Positions 8,941 to 64,000 of a DNA stretch of 64,000 bases are shown piece after piece. Position numbers and translations under genes: made by a program. Location of the stretch: positions 236,312-300,311 of the forward strand of contig QBZY01000001.1 of the NCBI GenBank assembly GCA_003282155.1, written 5' to 3'. The notes beneath the pieces were generated by a model. It did no database searches. It had not been told where the DNA came from and saw only the letters and a program-made list of their open reading frames with translations. Source of the DNA: Pelagibacteraceae bacterium AG-337-I02 (GTDB lineage Bacteria > Pseudomonadota > Alphaproteobacteria > HIMB59 > GCA-002718135). Numbering within the stretch: the first letter of the stretch is position 1; every line of letters starts with the position of its first letter.

Positions 8941-9266
8941 AAAACTATGCGTTAAAATGGGTTTTGCAAAGAATCACAGCTACAATAATGATACCTTTAA
9001 CTTTTTGGTTCATTTATTCTGCAATTTCACTATCCAAAATGGGTTATGACGAAATTAATATATTCTTCAACTCATATATTAATTCTCTACTTTTCTATGT
9101 AATGATGATTTCTATGCTTCTTCATTCCAAATTAGGCCTACAAACAATAGTAGATGATTATGTCACATCGAAAAAAATTTCAAAAAATATTAAACGCGTT
9201 TTGAATATAAACGCTTATATGTTGATGATCTTAATAACTATATTTATAATAAGAAATATACTCTAA
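8937..9266 (+). CDS. sdhD: Succinate dehydrogenase membrane anchor subunit
   Basis: The start is taken as the ATG at 8937 ([15 protein letters not shown]), overlapping sdhC by 4 bases; the ORF track's 8925 start is a TTG inside sdhC. The 109-residue product has three membrane helices and [14 protein letters not shown], the haem-histidine segment of SdhD. It forms the quinone site with SdhC. Its stop shares a base with the ATG of sdhA. Confidence 0.9.
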
Positions 9267-11062
9267 TGTCCAAAAATTCTTACAATATAATTGATCACCA
9301 CTACGATGTTATAGTAGTAGGTGCAGGAGGTTCAGGTCTAAGAGCTACGCTTGGATGCGCTGAATCTGGACTGAAAACAGCTTGTATTTCAAAAGTATTT
9401 CCTACAAGAAGTCACACCGTAGCCGCCCAAGGCGGTATTGGAGCTGCATTAGGAAATATGGGAGAAGATAATTGGAAGTGGCACATGTATGATACTGTAA
9501 AAGGCTCCGATTGGTTAGGAGATCAAGATGCTATAGAGTATCTCTGCTCAAAAGCTCCCGAAGCAGTTATAGAGTTAGAAGAATATGGAATGCCATTTAG
9601 TAGAACCGATGATGGCAAAATTTATCAGAGACCTTTTGGAGGACATTTAACAAATAATGGTGAAGGCGCTCCAGCAATGAGAGCATGTGCAGCAGCAGAT
9701 AGAACAGGTCACGCTCTTTTACACACGTTGTATCAACAATCACTAAAGAACAACGTTGAATTTTTTATCGAATACTTTGTTTTAGATTTGATTACAGATG
9801 ATAATGGTAATTGTATTGGAGCAGTAGCATGGTGTCTGGAAGATGGTTCGATACACCGTTTTTTATCCCACCAAACTATTCTAGCCACTGGAGGATATGG
9901 AAGAGCATATTTTTCTTCAACTAGTGCTCATATTTGTACAGGTGATGGAAGTGCTATGGCATTGAGACAAGATCTGCCACTTTCAGACATGGAATTTATC
10001 CAGTTTCATCCAACAGGAGTTTATGGGGCTGGAGTTTTAATTACCGAAGGTGCAAGAGGTGAGGGCGGTTACTTAACTAATAGTGATGGAGATAGATTTA
10101 TGGAAAGATATGCTCCTAATGCAAAAGATCTTGCTTCCAGAGATGTTGTTAGTAGAGCTATGACAATAGAAATTAATGAAAAAAGAGGTTGTGGTGAAAA
10201 TGCAGATCACGTTTTACTCCATCTTGAGCATATAGATGCAGACACTATACACAAAAGGCTACCTGGTATTTCTGAGACTGCTAAAATTTTTGCAGGTGTA
10301 GATTTAACAAAAAAACCAATACCGGTTCTACCAACAGTACATTATAATATGGGTGGTATTCCCACAAACTATAGAACAGAGGTTCTTAGACCAACAAATG
10401 ACAATCCTGACAATGTATGTGAAGGTCTTTTGGCAGTCGGAGAAGCAGCATGCGTTTCTGTTCATGGCGCTAATAGGCTAGGAACAAATTCACTAATTGA
10501 TCTTGTTGTTTTCGGAAAAGCATCAAGTGAAACATGTAAAGAAAAAGTACAACCTAATTCAAAAAAAATTGAAATTAGCAAGTCTATAACCGAAGGAATT
10601 ATTGATAGATTTGACAAGATTAGGCATAGCAAAGGAGATTCAACAACTGGAGAATTAAGAACTTCAATGCAACATATTATGCAAAAAAATTGTGCTGTAT
10701 TTAGAACTCATGAATTAATTTCTGATGGTATAAATGAATTCCAAAAAGTTGAAAACTCAATGGACTCAATAGATATAAAAGACAGATCAATTATATTTAA
10801 TACAGATCTTGTAGAGTCTTTAGAACTACATAACTTAATGGCTCAATCAAAAGTTACACTTCATTCTGCTTTAAACAGAACTGAGAGTAGAGGAGCACAT
10901 GCTCGTGAGGACTATCAAAAGAGAGATGATAAAAATTGGCTTGTTCACTCATTAGCTTGGCTTAAAGATAATGGGGAAGTTAATATGGGCAAAAGAGCAG
11001 TGCATACTAATACATTAACGAATCATGTACAACCTATTCCACCGAAAAAACGAGTATATTGA
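9266..11062 (+). CDS. sdhA: Succinate dehydrogenase flavoprotein subunit
   Basis: 598 residues, full length. It oxidises succinate to fumarate with covalently bound FAD. Visible are the dinucleotide fold [13 protein letters not shown] near residue 18, the covalent-FAD histidine in [15 protein letters not shown], the active-site [22 protein letters not shown] region and the C-terminal [15 protein letters not shown] segment. It is cotranslated with sdhD and sdhB through one-base overlaps, as expected for a stoichiometric complex. Confidence 0.97.
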
Positions 11063-31830: not shown

Positions 31831-33135
31831 TTATTCTTGAATTTCATTAAAGAGACTCACACCCTGTACAAGATCAAAGGCTCTACGAAGTTGATAATCA
31901 AGCTCAAATCGTTTTTCAAATTCACTTAATTCATTATCTTCACTATCTTCATTATCTTCCAAATCTTCTTCATTGTTCTTATCAAGAGAATCTTTTAAAT
32001 CTGACTCAGAAAATCTTCTATAATTAAATGATTCGAATTCTCCTTGTTCTATGATTATATCTGGCACAATACCCTTACCCTGTATTGATTCACCTGAGGG
32101 AGTATAATATCTAGCTGTAGTTAATCTTATACCAGTGAGATTGTCACTATTTGAAACTTGAAAGGGAATTATCGTTTGTACTGATCCTTTACCAAAAGAT
32201 TGTGTGCCAATAATTATTGCTCTTTTATGATCCTGCAGTGCGCCTGCAACAATTTCAGATGCAGATGCAGAACCACCGTCAATAATTACAACAAGTGGTT
32301 TACCATTAGTTCTGTCAGAATTTTTTGCACGATATCTTCTAATATCTTTTTTATCTCTACCTCTTGTTGAAACAATTTCTCCTCTTTCCAAGAATATGTC
32401 TGTTACCTTAACTGCTTGAGTAAGAAGACCCCCTGGGTTAGACCGTACATCTAAAACATAACCTTTTATTTGGTTTTCTTTTTCAATTTTTTTTATTGCA
32501 TCAAGAAGGCCACTTTCTGTTTGTTCGTTAAAAGATGTTATTCTCAAATATCCAATATTATTAAGTACTTCACTTTTTACTGATCTAATTTTTATATAAT
32601 CTCTAATAATTTCAATCTCAAAGGGTTCAGTATTTGCTCTCGAAATAGTAATTACTATTGGTTCACCTTTTTTGCCTCTCATTAATTCAACAGCTTCGTT
32701 TAGAGTTAGACCAAAAACAGGTGTTTCGTCTATTTGAATAATGTAATCACCTGCAAGAATTCCAGCTTCATATGCTGGCGAATCTTCTATCGGAGCAATG
32801 ACTTTCACAAAACCTTCTTCCATGGTAATTTCAATTCCTAATCCGCCAAATTTACCCTCTGTATCCATTTGCATTTCTTGAAATACTTCTTCATTCATAA
32901 AACCAGAATGAGGATCTAAACCTGACAACATTCCATCAATCGCTTTTTCAATTAATTCTTGATCCGTAACCTCTTCCACATAGGAAGATCTTACCCTGTC
33001 AAATACCTGTCCAAATAGATCTAAATATTTATATTTTTCTTCATCTGAAGAAGATCCATATGTTTTAGTTGCAAGAAGTGTAATTAGGGTGAACAGTAGT
33101 ATTACTTTTAAAAATACATTTTTTGAAATTATCAT
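31831..33135 (-). CDS. ctpA: Carboxy-terminal processing protease (S41)
   Basis: 434 residues. Periplasmic serine protease with an N-terminal signal sequence (LKVILLFTLITLLATKTYG), PDZ domain (about 95-175, GLGIEITMEEGFVKVIAPIEDSPA) and catalytic Ser-Lys dyad: serine in GGSASASEIVAGAL, lysine in GTQSFGKGSVQT. The tail is markedly acidic (NNEEDLEDNEDSEDNE) before a conserved YQLRRAFDL end. Follows rsfS by 5 bases; the EnvC and RlmH genes usually found here in other alphaproteobacteria are absent. Confidence 0.93.
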   Translation of the reverse strand: MIISKNVFLKVILLFTLITLLATKTYGSSSDEEKYKYLDLFGQVFDRVRSSYVEEVTDQELIEKAIDGMLSGLDPHSGFMNEEVFQEMQMDTEGKFGGLGIEITMEEGFVKVIAPIEDSPAYEAGILAGDYIIQIDETPVFGLTLNEAVELMRGKKGEPIVITISRANTEPFEIEIIRDYIKIRSVKSEVLNNIGYLRITSFNEQTESGLLDAIKKIEKENQIKGYVLDVRSNPGGLLTQAVKVTDIFLERGEIVSTRGRDKKDIRRYRAKNSDRTNGKPLVVIIDGGSASASEIVAGALQDHKRAIIIGTQSFGKGSVQTIIPFQVSNSDNLTGIRLTTARYYTPSGESIQGKGIVPDIIIEQGEFESFNYRRFSESDLKDSLDKNNEEDLEDNEDSEDNELSEFEKRFELDYQLRRAFDLVQGVSLFNEIQE

Positions 33136-58223: not shown

Positions 58224-59414
58224 GTGACTGAATATAAAGTATTAAAAAGATCTTTTTATATCGCTTACTCAGTAGGCGCACTAAATATTTTTCTATTAAC
58301 CGTTTATATGGTTCATGTTCCACTTTTACTAGATATACTAAAAATTACAAAAGTAGAATTCTCATTTGGATTAACATTATTTGGTTTATGCAGTATAATT
58401 TCTAATCAAGCAACTACACTTTTTTTGACTCCAAAGATTGGAACAAAAAACTGTATTGTCATTTCAAGAACTATTATATCTTTTTTACCTCTAATAGTTT
58501 TTTTTTCAGAAAGTTATTTTGTTTTCTTAATTGTATCATCTATTTGGGGTTTAGCCATGGGTATACAGGTACCAAATGTTTTGTTGCAAGTTAGTATTAT
58601 TGAAAAAGAAACTTCTGAAATTTTAAACCCTATATTTAAATCAGCATTTTCAATAGGTGTAATATGCGGTTCAATAACTGCCAGTATTGCACTTGGGTAT
58701 AATATTAATCCCATTAATATATTTATTTTTTTTGGCTTTATTTTTATCCTTTCAGCGATAACAATTTATTTTTTGGGATTACCAAGGAAATATGACATTG
58801 TAAACAAAGGTTCAAAATTTACTCTACCAAGTAAAGGTGTTTTTATATTTGGACTCATAAATATGCTTATCTTTGCTTCCATGGGAATAATTGCACAATG
58901 GTCATCATTGTGGCTGCTTAATGATCTTAACGCAGCTATTTTTATGGCCGGCTCAATAGTACTTTTTTTTAATATTGGAGGAATAATTAGCAATTTTTTG
59001 GCATCAAATCTTATCAATCTGTTTAATGAAAAAGTTGTAGGCCCTTACTTTTCCATAATAGGATCAATAATTCTGATAGTCAGTATTACAACAATGAACT
59101 TATATATAATTCTTTTAGCTATGATAATTTTTGGATTTTTTACATCAAATTTATTACCTATAGTAATTAGATTAGCTGTTAAAATCTCTAAAGAGCCTAT
59201 GCCTAAGACTATCTCTCATATAACTAGCATAGGTCAAGCAGGAGCTTTATTTGGTCCAGCAATTGTTGGTTTTTCTGCATCAATCTTTGGATTAACTTTT
59301 AATATGTATGCACTAGGTTTTATTTTTTTAGGTATTTCGTTTTTATTATTAACGGCTATAAAAAATAATACAGTGGTAGGAGTAGAGGGAATCGAACCCA
59401 CACCACCGAAGTGA
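58224..59414 (+). CDS. MFS transporter, second of a tandem pair, reading into a tRNA fragment
   Basis: 396 residues from a GTG at 58224. Closely parallels the preceding transporter (SIISNQATTLFLTPKIGT; FNPIFKSAF-like segments; FGLTFNMYALGF near the end). Its last 14 codons (VVGVEGIEPTPPK) are the antisense of a tRNA-Leu 3' end, so the original C-terminus was probably lost or the gene simply overlaps the tRNA. The transport domain is otherwise complete, so it may still work. It marks the last core gene before the accessory region. Confidence 0.75.
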   Translation: MTEYKVLKRSFYIAYSVGALNIFLLTVYMVHVPLLLDILKITKVEFSFGLTLFGLCSIISNQATTLFLTPKIGTKNCIVISRTIISFLPLIVFFSESYFVFLIVSSIWGLAMGIQVPNVLLQVSIIEKETSEILNPIFKSAFSIGVICGSITASIALGYNINPINIFIFFGFIFILSAITIYFLGLPRKYDIVNKGSKFTLPSKGVFIFGLINMLIFASMGIIAQWSSLWLLNDLNAAIFMAGSIVLFFNIGGIISNFLASNLINLFNEKVVGPYFSIIGSIILIVSITTMNLYIILLAMIIFGFFTSNLLPIVIRLAVKISKEPMPKTISHITSIGQAGALFGPAIVGFSASIFGLTFNMYALGFIFLGISFLLLTAIKNNTVVGVEGIEPTPPK

Positions 59415-59427
59415 CCGGATTTTGAAT
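59374..59427 (-). other. tRNA-Leu 3' half, putative attachment site
   Basis: The minus strand reads ATTCAAAATCCGG from an anticodon loop with CAA, then a long class-II variable arm (TCACTTCGGTGG), T arm GTGTGGGTTCGATTCCC, acceptor strand TACTCCT, A and CCA. The 5' half is missing: bases before ATTCAAAA cannot form the anticodon stem, and no AGGAGTA partner is seen nearby. A tRNA cut exactly at the anticodon loop is the usual footprint of tyrosine-recombinase integration. It shares 12 exact bases (ATTCAAAATCCG) with the complete tRNA-Leu at 62684-62770 but differs elsewhere. Confidence 0.75.
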
Positions 59428-59507
59428 ACAACGAGTACAGATTTTGAGTACCCTCAGTCTGCAAAACCCCTAGAGTTTCCCTTGTTTCTACTGCTCTCTT
59501 TTACCTC

Positions 59508-59783
59508 TCATTTTAGTGTACGACTTGTATACGACTTCTGTTCATTGATTAATAGTGATTTCTGCAAATCATCAATCTGAAATCTTATGAACGAGAAAAT
59601 ACTACCTAACACTTCGTTTTTCAATACTTCATCAGTATCAACATTTTGACCATGTAAACCAGTCTGAATGAAATGCCCCAGAACTGCACCATAATAGTCA
59701 TTAGATTTCAGACCATTTGCGTGAGTTAGAGAACAAACCCAAATAGACAATCCAAAGACTAAGAATAAGAATACCTTAATCAT
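59508..59783 (-). CDS. Small exported protein of the island
   Basis: 91 residues, not recognised. A signal peptide is likely (MIKVFLFLVFGLSIWVCSLTHA), leaving a mature 69-residue soluble protein containing a NDYYGAVLGHFIQTGLHG stretch. Its start overlaps the recombinase stop by 4 bases, so it is expressed with it. Its last codons are made of the tandem 11-base repeats GTGTACGACTT/GTATACGACTT described below. Confidence 0.55.
   Translation of the reverse strand: MIKVFLFLVFGLSIWVCSLTHANGLKSNDYYGAVLGHFIQTGLHGQNVDTDEVLKNEVLGSIFSFIRFQIDDLQKSLLINEQKSYTSRTLK
59516..59537 (+). repeat. Tandem 11-base repeat GTGTACGACTT GTATACGACTT
   Basis: Two copies of GTRTACGACTT lie head to tail at 59516-59526 and 59527-59537, inside the 3' end of the small exported-protein gene. 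Related GTRTACGA sites (one as GTATACGACTA, two in inverted orientation) occur in the iteron region at 60531-60613, suggesting a shared binding protein. Confidence 0.6.
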
Positions 59784-60478
59784 GCAACCCTAACGAAGTT
59801 GTCCTTTTCTCTATTGTAGATTTTATTGATATGTGAGAAGTGCAGTTTTCTGCCATACTCAGTTTCTATTAATTTAGAGATATCTCTAAACCCTGTCTTA
59901 CTATCCTTAAGTTCAAATATCCTATTAAGAATAGATTGTTCCTTTTCGTCATCTACATAAGTTTTCCCGTCTGCTGATAATTTCTTACCAAACAGAATGT
60001 TTTTACCCCCAAGATAACGACCAGACTTTCTCATTCTAGTCTTTGTTGATTTAACTCTTTCAGAAACCATTAGTCTTTCTGTTTCTGCAAAGACTGACAT
60101 TATTAGAAATACTATTCTGCCAATACCCTCGCCATTGATATGACCTAAGTCTGTTGTATGAACTTCAATACCCTTTGATTTACATATCTCTAAGAAATCT
60201 AGAGTATCTTTGATAGACCTAGACATTCTATCCAAACGAGAGAATAGAATTACACTACCCCTAGAACATTGAGAAAATAGTTGTTTAAATATCTTCCTTT
60301 TTAAAAGAGATACTCCACCAGACACATGCTCTTTGTAAATATCCTTGATATCTAAGTCATGTAATTCTGCATATGAATAACATTTGTCAATCTGCGTATC
60401 TGATGAACTTTCTTTATTAAATGAGTCCAAATCAGAATTACGAGTATAGATAAATGTTTTTCTCTTTATTTCTGTCAT
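59780..60478 (-). CDS. Serine recombinase (resolvase/invertase type)
   Basis: 232 residues from the ATG at 60478, preceded by AAGGAG with an 8-base gap; the longer listed start is unlikely. FIYTRNSDLDSF places the nucleophile serine at residue 15 after the usual Y-x-R; VILFSRLDRMSRSIKDTLDFLE, ETERLMVSERVKSTKTRMRKSGRYLGG give the catalytic core and E-helix. The C-terminal part (RNFRDISKLIETEY-like GFRDISKLI) could be a helix-turn-helix. Likely a resolvase or invertase of the element, possibly the integrase for another site. Divergent from the rep operon across the iteron region. Confidence 0.82.
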   Translation of the reverse strand: MTEIKRKTFIYTRNSDLDSFNKESSSDTQIDKCYSYAELHDLDIKDIYKEHVSGGVSLLKRKIFKQLFSQCSRGSVILFSRLDRMSRSIKDTLDFLEICKSKGIEVHTTDLGHINGEGIGRIVFLIMSVFAETERLMVSERVKSTKTRMRKSGRYLGGKNILFGKKLSADGKTYVDDEKEQSILNRIFELKDSKTGFRDISKLIETEYGRKLHFSHINKIYNREKDNFVRVA

Positions 60479-60530
60479 TATTAAACTCCTTGTTTCATTA
60501 ATGTTCATAGATGATACAACATTTTCCAAT

Positions 60531-60646
60531 ATTCGTACACTAAAACCACCCTAAGTATGCGTAGTTTTCCGCTAGTATACGACTAAATCCCCCAGATTGC
60601 GTAAATCGTACACAAGAATTACCCTCAGTTTGCGTAAAATTACGCA
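60531..60646 (+). repeat. Iteron-like repeat array, candidate replication origin
   Basis: Three imperfect copies of a roughly 38-base unit start at 60531, 60571 and 60604. Each has GTAxAC near its start and, at a fixed 27 bases, TGCGTA after a CCCxxAGxx stretch (CCCTAAGTATGCGTAG, CCCCCAGATTGCGTAAAT, CCCTCAGTTTGCGTAAAAT). The third ends in the perfect 16-base palindrome TGCGTAAAATTACGCA (60631-60646). A DnaA-box-like TTATCCCCA (60657-60665) and an AT-rich stretch follow. Repeats plus palindrome plus DnaA box next to a rep gene are the layout of plasmid origins. Confidence 0.62.
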
Positions 60647-60799
60647 GTTTTAGACTTATCCCCAGAAATATTGATAAAATTGTGATGTAGAGAGTACATC
60701 TCTTATAAATAATTATGACACAGAACGCATGACTTAAAAATAGTCAAATAAACCATATGTCGTGCTGTTCTTAGTCTGCAATATATCGACAGAAAAAAT

Positions 60800-60916
60800 A
60801 TGACAGAGAAACAACAAATAGAGAATTTGCTTAAACAGATTGAAAGACAACCTTCTGCTGAACTCAAATTCAAAACACTTATTCAGATTGTGAGAATGAT
60901 TATCAAACTCCTATGA
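60800..60916 (+). CDS. 38-residue ORF coupled to rep
   Basis: Too short for the ORF track. ATG at 60800 gives MTEKQQIENLLKQIERQPSA and 18 more residues ending RMIIKLL, and the TGA (60914-60916) overlaps the ATG of the next gene (ATGA). It is a helical, mixed-charge peptide with no recognised domain. Its overlap suggests translational coupling that sets Rep level, a control type known for plasmid rep genes; a protein function is equally possible. Confidence 0.5.
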   Translation: MTEKQQIENLLKQIERQPSAELKFKTLIQIVRMIIKLL

Positions 60917-61521
60917 CCAGAAACTTCAAACATTTCCTTGATAAGAAATCCCACAATCTGATGAAGTTGATGAAACAATATTCAGAGAGAAGTGAGTTAG
61001 TCGATTTCTTAGATGATGCTGACTTTAATTATCAGATTACCATTCCATGTCATCACATGAATTATACTTCTGACACTTATGAGAAAAAGATTAAAGACTT
61101 CGTATCTCTCCTAGAAAAATTAATCTTCACTAGAAAAGAATTGAAACGAATTGATAAGAAATCTAAGAAACGAATTTATCAAATCCAAAGATATGCAACC
61201 TATGAAAATAATTCTCATGTTCACATTTTAATTGATAGACCAGATTGCAAGAAGATAAGAGAACTTGATAATGATGAAGTTGATGATTTCATCAAGACCA
61301 AAGTAATTAAAGTTTTACAAAAGTTGAGAATGTTTAATCTCAAACAGATTGACCCAACATTATCCAAGTTCTTCAAAACGATTAAGAATACGACAGAGAA
61401 ATTTATTTGTTTGAATTACAATACCAAAGAATACTCAAACAATATTAGACGATATAAGAATAACGATAAGTTATTCAGTACAATTGATTTCAGTAATTTA
61501 TATGTAAGACCTGCTCTTTGA
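60913..61521 (+). CDS. Probable HUH-type replication initiator (Rep)
   Basis: 202 residues. The block RYATYENNSHVHILIDRP (about residues 93-110) has His-x-His flanked by hydrophobics, the metal-binding HUH motif of rolling-circle Rep/relaxases; ICLNYNTKEYS (about 166-175) offers a YxxK catalytic tyrosine (Y169). FNYQITIPCH could be motif I. The protein is otherwise Lys-rich and helical. It lies downstream of the iteron array. The spacing between motifs suits single-tyrosine Reps, but overall similarity to known families was not tested, so this is a motif-level call. Confidence 0.55.
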   Translation: MTRNFKHFLDKKSHNLMKLMKQYSERSELVDFLDDADFNYQITIPCHHMNYTSDTYEKKIKDFVSLLEKLIFTRKELKRIDKKSKKRIYQIQRYATYENNSHVHILIDRPDCKKIRELDNDEVDDFIKTKVIKVLQKLRMFNLKQIDPTLSKFFKTIKNTTEKFICLNYNTKEYSNNIRRYKNNDKLFSTIDFSNLYVRPAL

Positions 61522-61645
61522 AGTGATGCTCTCGAAGTATCTGTAAGTGCATTATTAAATTAAGTAATCATAAATATTTAAACCAAGACAATGTTAGATA
61601 GTTCTAACCTTGATTAGAACTCTATTGTCCAAAGAAAGTAAAAGA

Positions 61646-62134
61646 ATGTTTAGACAACAATTAGATACATTATCTCAGAGTAAGAAAAGACAAGAACAAC
61701 GAGTAAGATTGAATGAGAGAATAAACCAAATCCATAATAACCAGACCTACAACCAATTACCTACTAAAGAAGTAGTTGATGTAGTGAACAAAGTTTCTTC
61801 TGAGTTTGATACTTTGAAATCTCAGAATTTGACTGAAATTAGACGATTTCTGAACATCTCAACACAGATTGCTCAGTTAAATAAATCCAAACAATCCTTA
61901 TCCAATGTGAATACAAAATATAACCAATTAAAATCCTCAATATCCAGTATCGACCAGAATGATAGTGCTCAACAAATACTCAAAAAGATGTCTAACGCCA
62001 TTTTATTATTATCAGATATGTTGATGTCCTCTACTGCACTAAGTAGAAGTAATACCATATCATCTGTTTCCAATAGTATTTTGACTAGAGATGTTGCAAA
62101 GAAATTTGACCAATTAACCAAGAAAAGAAGATAA
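61646..62134 (+). CDS. Helical protein of unknown function in the island
   Basis: Start taken at the ATG 61646 (MFRQQLDTLSQSKKRQEQRV); the listed 61610 is a TTG. About 162 residues, rich in Gln, Ser, Asn and Lys, with alternating hydrophobics typical of long helices or coiled coils and no known motif. LLLSDMLMSSTALSRS is a more hydrophobic helix near residues 125-140. Lies between rep and a ribbon-helix-helix gene on the same strand. Function not known. Confidence 0.55.
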   Translation: MFRQQLDTLSQSKKRQEQRVRLNERINQIHNNQTYNQLPTKEVVDVVNKVSSEFDTLKSQNLTEIRRFLNISTQIAQLNKSKQSLSNVNTKYNQLKSSISSIDQNDSAQQILKKMSNAILLLSDMLMSSTALSRSNTISSVSNSILTRDVAKKFDQLTKKRR

Positions 62135-62143
62135 GAGAAACCA

Positions 62144-62332
62144 ATGACAAAATATCCATCAATTAGAACTAATATAATTTTAAACGAAGTGACCCAAAAA
62201 CAATTAGATGATTTATCTAAAAGTGAATTTACATCTAAATCACAATATCTAAGAAAAGTGATTTCTGAACAACACCAAAAGATGAATTCTCAAATTGAAC
62301 GAGTTAAGAATTTTAACTTACAATCAGCATAG
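62144..62332 (+). CDS. Ribbon-helix-helix DNA-binding protein
   Basis: 62 residues. KYPSIRTNIILNEVTQKQLD gives the beta strand plus helix 1, and EFTSKSQYLRKVISEQHQKM the second helix of an Arc/CopG-type ribbon-helix-helix dimer. Small RHH proteins placed behind rep are often copy-number repressors or partition/antitoxin-like regulators. No toxin gene accompanies it. It could bind the GTRTACGA repeats. Confidence 0.65.
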   Translation: MTKYPSIRTNIILNEVTQKQLDDLSKSEFTSKSQYLRKVISEQHQKMNSQIERVKNFNLQSA

Positions 62333-62343
62333 AACTTTTGCGT

Positions 62344-62390
62344 AAGTGAGTATCATTTTCTAGTCTCCCTAGTTTGATACTCACTTTAGA
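62344..62390 (+). terminator. Terminator hairpin after the rep operon
   Basis: AAGTGAGTATCA (62344-62355) pairs perfectly over 12 bases with TGATACTCACTT (62375-62386) around a 19-base loop that itself can form CTAG-CTAG, followed by a T-rich TTTTATCT tail. It lies 12 bases after the ribbon-helix-helix stop. Confidence 0.65.
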
Positions 62391-62621
62391 CTTTTATCTA
62401 AAATATGTTTCACTTGATATTTTGATTTAAACGAACTCTCAATAATGAAATTCTGAAATTAAGTGTCATACATCAAAACTCAAAAATAAACCTCTCATAA
62501 GTAATCTATTACGATTTAGATACTTCGCCTTACAAAGTACCCCCCGTCAAAACTGAACGACCTTTAAATAAAAAAGAATTATTATTTTTTAAATCTATAA
62601 TCAGTTTCTAAAGTTGTTAGA

Positions 62622-62652
62622 GATATACTAAAAGTGTTTAGTATCTTTTTTT
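62622..62652 (+). terminator. Hairpin with T run, second terminator
   Basis: ATACTAAA and TTTAGTAT pair around the AGTG loop and are followed directly by CTTTTTTTG on the plus strand, a classical intrinsic terminator shape. It reads against the following minus-strand tRNA-Leu, so it may insulate that tRNA or finish a read-through from the rep operon. Confidence 0.6.
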
Positions 62653-62683
62653 GTAAATTTTTTTTTGAGAATTTTTTTACTTC

Positions 62684-62770
62684 TGGTAGCGATGGTGGGA
62701 CTCGAACCCACACGCCATTGCTGACAACGGATTTTGAATCCGTCTTGTCTACCAATTCCAACACATCGCC
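62684..62770 (-). tRNA. tRNA-Leu (anticodon CAA), complete
   Basis: Minus strand: acceptor GGCGATG/CATCGCT (with a G-U first pair), D arm TTG-GAATTGGTAGA-CAA, anticodon arm ACGGA-TTCAAAA-TCCGT with anticodon CAA, long variable arm (GTCAGCAATGGC), T arm GTGGG-TTCGAGT-CCCAC, discriminator A and encoded CCA. All stems pair, so it is probably functional. It shares the 12-base anticodon core with the split tRNA at 59374-59427 but not its acceptor or variable arm. Confidence 0.92.
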
Positions 62771-62798
62771 AGATGATTATCTTTTAACATCAGAGAAA

Positions 62799-64000
62799 TT
62801 ATTTTACCAATCTTAAATTACCTTTTGCAATTTTGCTTTGTCTTTCAATCTTATTAATCTGTTCAATAAGACTATCGACCTTCATGTTTGCTGTGTAATT
62901 CTTATCAATCATTGTTGTAGATGTTCCTAACATCTTTGCGATTATTGTTGAGTTCACACCTTTATCTAAAAGAACTTGAATGAAAGAATGCCTAAAACTC
63001 TTGCTATCTCTAGTTAATTCACGATCCCCAGACTTCTCTATTTTCAGACCACTTTCTTCAAGTAGACTATTCAATCCTTCTCTAAATGATTTCTGACCTA
63101 ACCAAATATTGCCTGTAATCTTGATGTTATTGTCCTTGTAAACTTTCATTAACCTTTGAAGTCCAAAGTATGCACTACCCATACCATATCCTTCTCTTTC
63201 GCCAGTTTTAGAATTAACTACCCTCATTCTTAAATAGTTATTTTCAATATCAGAGTAATAGTCACCTCTTCTCTTTTCTCTATCTCTGCTCTCAAACTTT
63301 ACATCTTCCCAATCCATACCCATACATTCATCAACCCTTAATCCAGTTCCCATCATCACGATACAAAAGTAATGAAGTTTTTGTCTTTCAAATTTTAACC
63401 TTTGATTAGTTGATTGCTTTATTCTGTTAGTGCTTACATTCATCATGTGCTTGTATTCGTCCATAGTGAATTGAGTACGACTTGTTTTTTGATGTTTTAA
63501 TTTTTTAGATAATGTCTTTGTTGTTATTCCTTCAAGTTTGTTAGAACGATAACCTTGTCTATGTGCCCAATTCATTACATTAGAAATAGTATTCAAACTA
63601 CCTAACAATGTTGCACCTCTAACCTTATCTAGACCTCGACCAGATTTCTTTAATTTATTTGTGTACCAAGAAATATGTTTATTGATGTCATCTAAAGAAA
63701 CTTGATTGACATTTAATTTTAAGAAGTCCTTGTTTCCTCTTATTATATCAATTCTTTGTGCCAGAGTTCTTTTAGTAGATTGTGATTTTGAATTATCACC
63801 TGTTAACTGATTTACAAATTCCTTAAAACATTCGTCCATTGTTTTTACATGAACATTCATTTTATGCTTATTCTTGAACTGCAATTCATCATACCAAGTA
63901 TCAAGTATTTTCTTTGCAGTAGATTTTGCTTCAGTTCCTGATGATTTCTCTACTTGCTTATCTTGTATGAAAGTTCGACCATACCAATTATTTGATTTGT
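62799..64000 (-). CDS. Tyrosine recombinase/integrase, N-terminus outside window
   Basis: Open to the window edge; the listed 361-residue ORF is extended upstream in frame (WYGRTFIQDKQVEKSS and more), so the true start is beyond base 64000. SAM-like core-binding domain (about residues 15-110 of the listed ORF), then the catalytic domain: arginine in MGTGLRVDECMGMDWEDV, SFRHSFIQVLLDKGV with the box-II arginine (the first box histidine is replaced by Lys), and the nucleophile tyrosine in MIDKNYTAN. It ends 29 bases from the tRNA-Leu 5' end, as tRNA-targeting integrases do. Probably the enzyme that used the tRNA-Leu site. Confidence 0.88.
   Translation of the reverse strand, partial: KSNNWYGRTFIQDKQVEKSSGTEAKSTAKKILDTWYDELQFKNKHKMNVHVKTMDECFKEFVNQLTGDNSKSQSTKRTLAQRIDIIRGNKDFLKLNVNQVSLDDINKHISWYTNKLKKSGRGLDKVRGATLLGSLNTISNVMNWAHRQGYRSNKLEGITTKTLSKKLKHQKTSRTQFTMDEYKHMMNVSTNRIKQSTNQRLKFERQKLHYFCIVMMGTGLRVDECMGMDWEDVKFESRDREKRRGDYYSDIENNYLRMRVVNSKTGEREGYGMGSAYFGLQRLMKVYKDNNIKITGNIWLGQKSFREGLNSLLEESGLKIEKSGDRELTRDSKSFRHSFIQVLLDKGVNSTIIAKMLGTSTTMIDKNYTANMKVDSLIEQINKIERQSKIAKGNLRLVK

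Follow-up and report, generated by a model that had tools for sequence, protein, structure and literature searches.

A 4.8 kb integrated element splits a host tRNA-Leu(CAA) gene in an alphaproteobacterial genome and carries its own tRNA-Leu(CAA) as a proposed replacement

The tRNA-Leu(CAA) gene of Pelagibacteraceae bacterium AG-337-I02, an uncultured, probably marine alphaproteobacterium of the HIMB59 order, was found to be divided by an integrated element of 4.8 kb, which very probably split the gene via its own integrase and carries a tRNA-Leu(CAA) that would cover the loss. The window analysed here is a stretch of 64,000 nucleotides (C1:236312-300311) of a 1.45 Mb draft genome, on a contig that extends 9.9 kb past the window end; positions beyond that end are given on the window scale. 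The element occupies window 59428-64000 and runs on to 64228, and it is absent between the same flanks in the best comparator, genome G025.

The 3' half of the host tRNA-Leu(CAA) is located on the minus strand at 59374-59427. Its 54 nt, ATTCAAAATCCGGTCACTTCGGTGGTGTGGGTTCGATTCCCTCTACTCCTACCA, agree letter for letter with the last 54 nt (3' end) of the intact gene that other genomes of the genus carry, and this identity excludes a chance match. The preliminary description had placed a tRNA-Leu 3' half here, correct in sequence, strand and coordinates, and the 5' half that it regarded as missing, GGGAGTATGGCGGAACTGGTAGACGCGCCGGATTCAAAATC, was located on the same contig 4.8 kb away at 64259-64219 (C1:300570-300530), 219-259 bases past the window end. 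GGGAGTA of this half pairs with TACTCCT of the other and CCGGA pairs with TCCGG; joined together, the two halves form the intact tRNA-Leu(CAA) of the genus. In the intact genus copies that were read, the T stem holds a T-T mismatch (GTGGG/CCCTC), while the copy carried by the element is fully paired.

The sole sequence common to both junctions is a 10-bp core, ATTCAAAATC, which spans the anticodon loop. One copy is found at 59418-59427 on the minus strand, at the junction with the 3' half, and the second at 64219-64228, outside the window, at the junction with the 5' half, with a core-to-core distance of 4801 bp. Since relatives carry the halves joined intact, one of them with both neighbours, the insertion is site-specific with a 10-bp core. 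Neither junction restores the host tRNA: ARAGORN found no tRNA at either one, its single call being a separate intact tRNA-Leu(CAA) at 62684-62770, and the regeneration of the target at one junction that marks a canonical island is not seen. What was observed instead, a core of about 10 bp within a host tRNA gene which is not reconstructed, is the arrangement described for tRNA-dependent integration (PMC10865867). The earlier reading of the break point as a natural crossover is supported: the anticodon loop was the specific site of an insertion, and a tyrosine integrase gene lies next to it. That reading had missed the far end of the element, the unrestored junctions and the proposed replacement tRNA-Leu(CAA).

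The site was examined in relatives. Of 61 genomes searched, 47 contain the pattern GGATTCAAAATCCGG, as do nine of the ten that are at least 90% complete. In G025 (locus L038) the MFS genes are the same, at 94.8% identity across 1369 bp, with the intact tRNA directly adjoining them, and the far-side flank, with genes named by eye as DUF1330-like and sulfatase-like, is 92.8% identical over 1334 bp. G025 thus has an intact tRNA here and does not carry this element, as the preliminary description had anticipated, although another island, about 4.7 kb long, occupies the space between the flanks. The proposed division of core from accessory DNA at the break point is also supported. The overlap of the last MFS ORF (58224-59414) with the tRNA fragment was confirmed, but it was rejected as a product of the break, as the same overlap is found in L038 with the tRNA intact (ORF 8987-10177, tRNA 10137-10221).

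Another genome, G067, matches the other flank through the 5' half (91.6% over 1.78 kb). Searches by exact pattern in 162 genomes of the order, which are incomplete so that further cases may be missed, identified a 5' half broken directly after the core in three other genomes (G067, G097 and G113) and a 3' half broken directly before the core in one (G031). Each of these four also has an intact host-type tRNA at the locus, and the G113 match is itself an intact gene with a one-base difference. Within this set, only AG-337-I02 has both halves broken and a divergent tRNA instead. We also noticed that tRNA-Leu(CAA) is an island hotspot in the genus, with an intact tRNA and at least one truncated 5' or 3' copy 1-10 kb away in several genomes (L038, L039, L040, L042, L043, L070, L071 and L073). 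L071 holds a ladder of such copies and L041 has two complete tRNA-Leu(CAA) copies. The truncated copies point to insertions that happened several times over and, unlike this one, left the gene restored.

An assembly chimera or binning error would be conceivable in a draft of 40 contigs that is 79% complete. Such an origin is scarcely credible here, as a single tRNA gene is interrupted at an identical core at both junctions, the two flanks occur together in a relative (G025) and repeat pairs are present at both ends. The G+C content of the element (0.314) also matches that of the flanks (0.308 and 0.313), and for the same reason composition gives no clue to when the element arrived or where it came from.

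The complete tRNA-Leu(CAA) carried by the element, with its CCA, is located on the minus strand at 62684-62770 (ARAGORN; Rfam 56.6 bits) and is the proposed replacement. Regeneration is the usual pattern of tRNA islands (PMC4383910), and the other islands at tRNA-Leu(CAA) in the genus follow it; in an ordinary tRNA-targeting island, 62684-62770 would be the host gene regenerated at a junction and the half at 59374 a displaced copy. This is very unlikely, because 62684-62770 shares only 77% identity with the host gene, from which its acceptor stem also differs. Furthermore, since the host 5' half lies past the integrase, the intact tRNA is enclosed within the element. A classic island with a regenerated tRNA is refuted by the 5' half at C1:300530-300570 together with the genus-wide sequence of the gene.

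Relative to the host gene, the spare tRNA shows seven compensatory pair changes (four in the acceptor stem, two in the D stem and one in the anticodon stem), and all 20 of the 20 stem pairs checked are kept. These features suggest that the spare tRNA is functional and argue for selection on its function. RNAfold z-scores of the tRNAs were unremarkable and gave no discrimination, and a promoter scan around the spare tRNA gave nothing above chance. Its nearest candidate donor among 19 records matching a pattern was a Sphingomonadales MAG (85% identical); Thioglobus-like Gammaproteobacteria tRNAs are about 80% identical and phage tRNAs up to about 83%. No close donor was found among the 19 records or the phage tRNAs.

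The spare tRNA and the broken host gene belong to one isoacceptor, and the spare copy presumably works and is presumably needed. The CAA tRNA is perhaps not strictly essential, because the host also has a tRNA-Leu(UAA) which may read UUG. It is conceivable that the split is real but that the spare tRNA mainly serves another role, such as translation of the element genes or evasion of a tRNA-cutting defence. Loss of tRNA-Leu(CAA) may be tolerable given that tRNA-Leu(UAA) is present and UUG forms only 9% of the Leu codons in the long window ORFs, against 19% in the element genes (a small sample). We regard this account as unlikely: it leaves unexplained why the tRNA is of the same isoacceptor as the destroyed gene and why it sits beside the integrase, and the genus keeps tRNA-Leu(CAA), as seen from the pattern in nine of ten relatives at least 90% complete.

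In the reading that we favour, replacement of the split gene, the element would have entered the host tRNA-Leu(CAA) gene through its own tyrosine integrase, by recombination at the 10-bp core within the anticodon loop. Because only about 10 bp are common to element and target, both ends would keep a dead tRNA half. The complete tRNA-Leu(CAA) directly behind the integrase gene would then cover the loss, and its transcription, charging and compensation would permit or stabilise the integrated state.

The integrase (429 aa) is encoded on the minus strand at 62799-64000 and on to 64088 (L037:4799-6088), and it was predicted from matches to Pfam PF00589 (E 4.7e-09) and PHROG 1 (E 5.9e-22); an element-encoded tyrosine integrase is likewise part of tRNA-dependent integration as defined (PMC10865867). 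Read by eye, its HxxR histidine and LGHS-type histidine look replaced, by K and T respectively, a point against the favoured reading. Starting from the 5' half and reading along the minus strand, the integrase gene is followed 28 bp on by the intact tRNA-Leu(CAA). Beyond the tRNA, three ORFs lie on the opposite strand, of 62 aa (62144-62332), 174 aa (61610-62134) and 202 aa (60913-61521), and then, again on the minus strand, a serine recombinase of 249 aa with a resolvase/invertase N-terminal domain (59780-60529; PF00239, E 3.4e-25) and a 91-aa ORF (59508-59783).

The two recombinases gave the only clear Pfam or PHROGs matches in the element. The 91-aa and 174-aa ORFs belong to no known family, and the 62-aa ORF looks ribbon-helix-helix-like by eye, with a weak RelB-like match (E 0.0067) below the cut-off. 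The 202-aa ORF has no HMM or family match; it has two motifs, NSHVHILI and YNTKE, that look like those of rolling-circle Rep proteins when judged by eye alone, and a fold search with its predicted model was set aside as meaningless at pLDDT 38. The structural, lysis and immunity genes expected of a temperate phage were not found with PHROGs, and PADLOC gave only weak, chance-like matches.

Pairs of the repeat TCGTAYAC were observed in both att arms, at 59516-59534 (minus strand) by the 3' half and at 64099-64152, outside the window, in the second arm. Three further copies are located at 60533-60613, upstream of the serine recombinase gene. In L037 there are seven matches against 0.14 expected, and seven were reached in none of 200 shuffles. 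Lambda-type integrases use pairs of arm-type sites around the core, and the TCGTAYAC pairs are probably the arm sites of this integrase, which we infer to have made the insertion. The same upstream region (60533-60645) holds direct repeats spaced 73 bp apart, each about 40 bp long and beginning TCGTACAC, which are possibly an operator, a res site or iterons. The circular junction expected of the excised element is TTGTATTCAAAATCAGTAGTAC; a search of viral contigs found no free attP form.

No close relative of the element was found, and it stands as a single case, which also counts against the favoured reading. Within the order, matches to the integrase were confined to its N-terminus and came from large, unrelated ORFs of G137; within the class, identity reached at most 31% (385 genomes). 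Relatives of the integrase were absent from viral contigs, phages (tBLASTn) and genome contigs, although the scans of contigs would have picked up close relatives only. The two G137 ORFs (L046 and L047) exceed 700 codons and their starts are 40-47% identical to the N-terminal region of the integrase, which is probably arm-binding; their remainder differs from the integrase and is PilM-like by eye. A relative of the serine recombinase, 34% identical, was found in G073 (L098:1-4036 = G073:C16). There it adjoins a two-piece-type tmRNA gene and a weakly similar Rep-like ORF (28%, global alignment), and the start of an integrase-like ORF runs off the contig end. G073:C16 may hold a related element using another target, possibly the tmRNA gene.

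The strategy of tRNA replacement is already known; what sets this case apart is that the carrier is a 4.8 kb element in which no phage structural genes can be recognised. tRNA-dependent lysogeny was demonstrated experimentally in actinobacteriophages, including mycobacteriophages; Gaia targets tRNA-Leu-CAA with an 8-bp core and has its own tRNA-Leu-CAA downstream of Int, Fionnbharth uses tRNA-Lys-TTT, and the Lactobacillus prophage Lj965 was named as a possible case (PMC10865867). The element resembles Gaia and Fionnbharth in its tyrosine integrase, a core (about 8-17 bp in theirs) in an unreconstructed host tRNA and a same-isotype tRNA of its own, and it shares with Gaia the isoacceptor and a tRNA position downstream of Int. 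Gaia and Fionnbharth, however, are complete temperate phages with actinobacterial hosts, and theirs are cases proven by experiment, whereas the present host is a probable marine alphaproteobacterium and the case is known from sequence only.

Sinorhizobium prophages in tRNA-Leu(UAG) are a sequence-only precedent in Alphaproteobacteria, with an inactivated tRNA-Leu and a divergent same-isoacceptor tRNA on the insert, but they are prophages, involve another isoacceptor and show 97.6% identity to a donor-like gene (PMC11476347); no donor-like gene was found here. Classic islands of the Islander model share the tyrosine integrase, the tRNA target and a fragment at one end, but regenerate the target at one junction (PMC4383910), which this element does not. 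Tycheposons, which are similar by description, also occur in marine streamlined bacteria with tRNA borders, a tyrosine recombinase and sizes from 4 kb (PMC10872708); they are described as cargo-carrying, whereas no sign of cargo was seen here.

How far tRNA-dependent lysogeny reaches beyond actinobacteriophages was left open when it was defined in 2024 (PMC10865867). The present element, from a different phylum, displays the anatomy cleanly, with both halves, the core, the intact gene of relatives, the integrase, the att-arm repeats and the spare tRNA all to be seen. The case suggests that the role of some tRNA genes on small elements is to pay for integration damage, and that such an insertion can exchange the native tRNA gene of a genome for a foreign one. 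For annotators, a lone tRNA half does not imply a restored tRNA. A wider proposal, to which we give slightly less than even chances, is that tRNA replacement is portable beyond phages and that tiny plasmid-like integrative elements in streamlined marine bacteria carry an isoacceptor tRNA as an addiction-like module; such an element would be lost only by precise excision re-forming the cell's own tRNA gene. Elsewhere in the window, 32169-32292 on the plus strand matches Rfam RF02800 (Rickettsia sRNA Rp_sR47) with a score of 84.1 bits, where the cut-off is 60; the genome is not one of Rickettsia.
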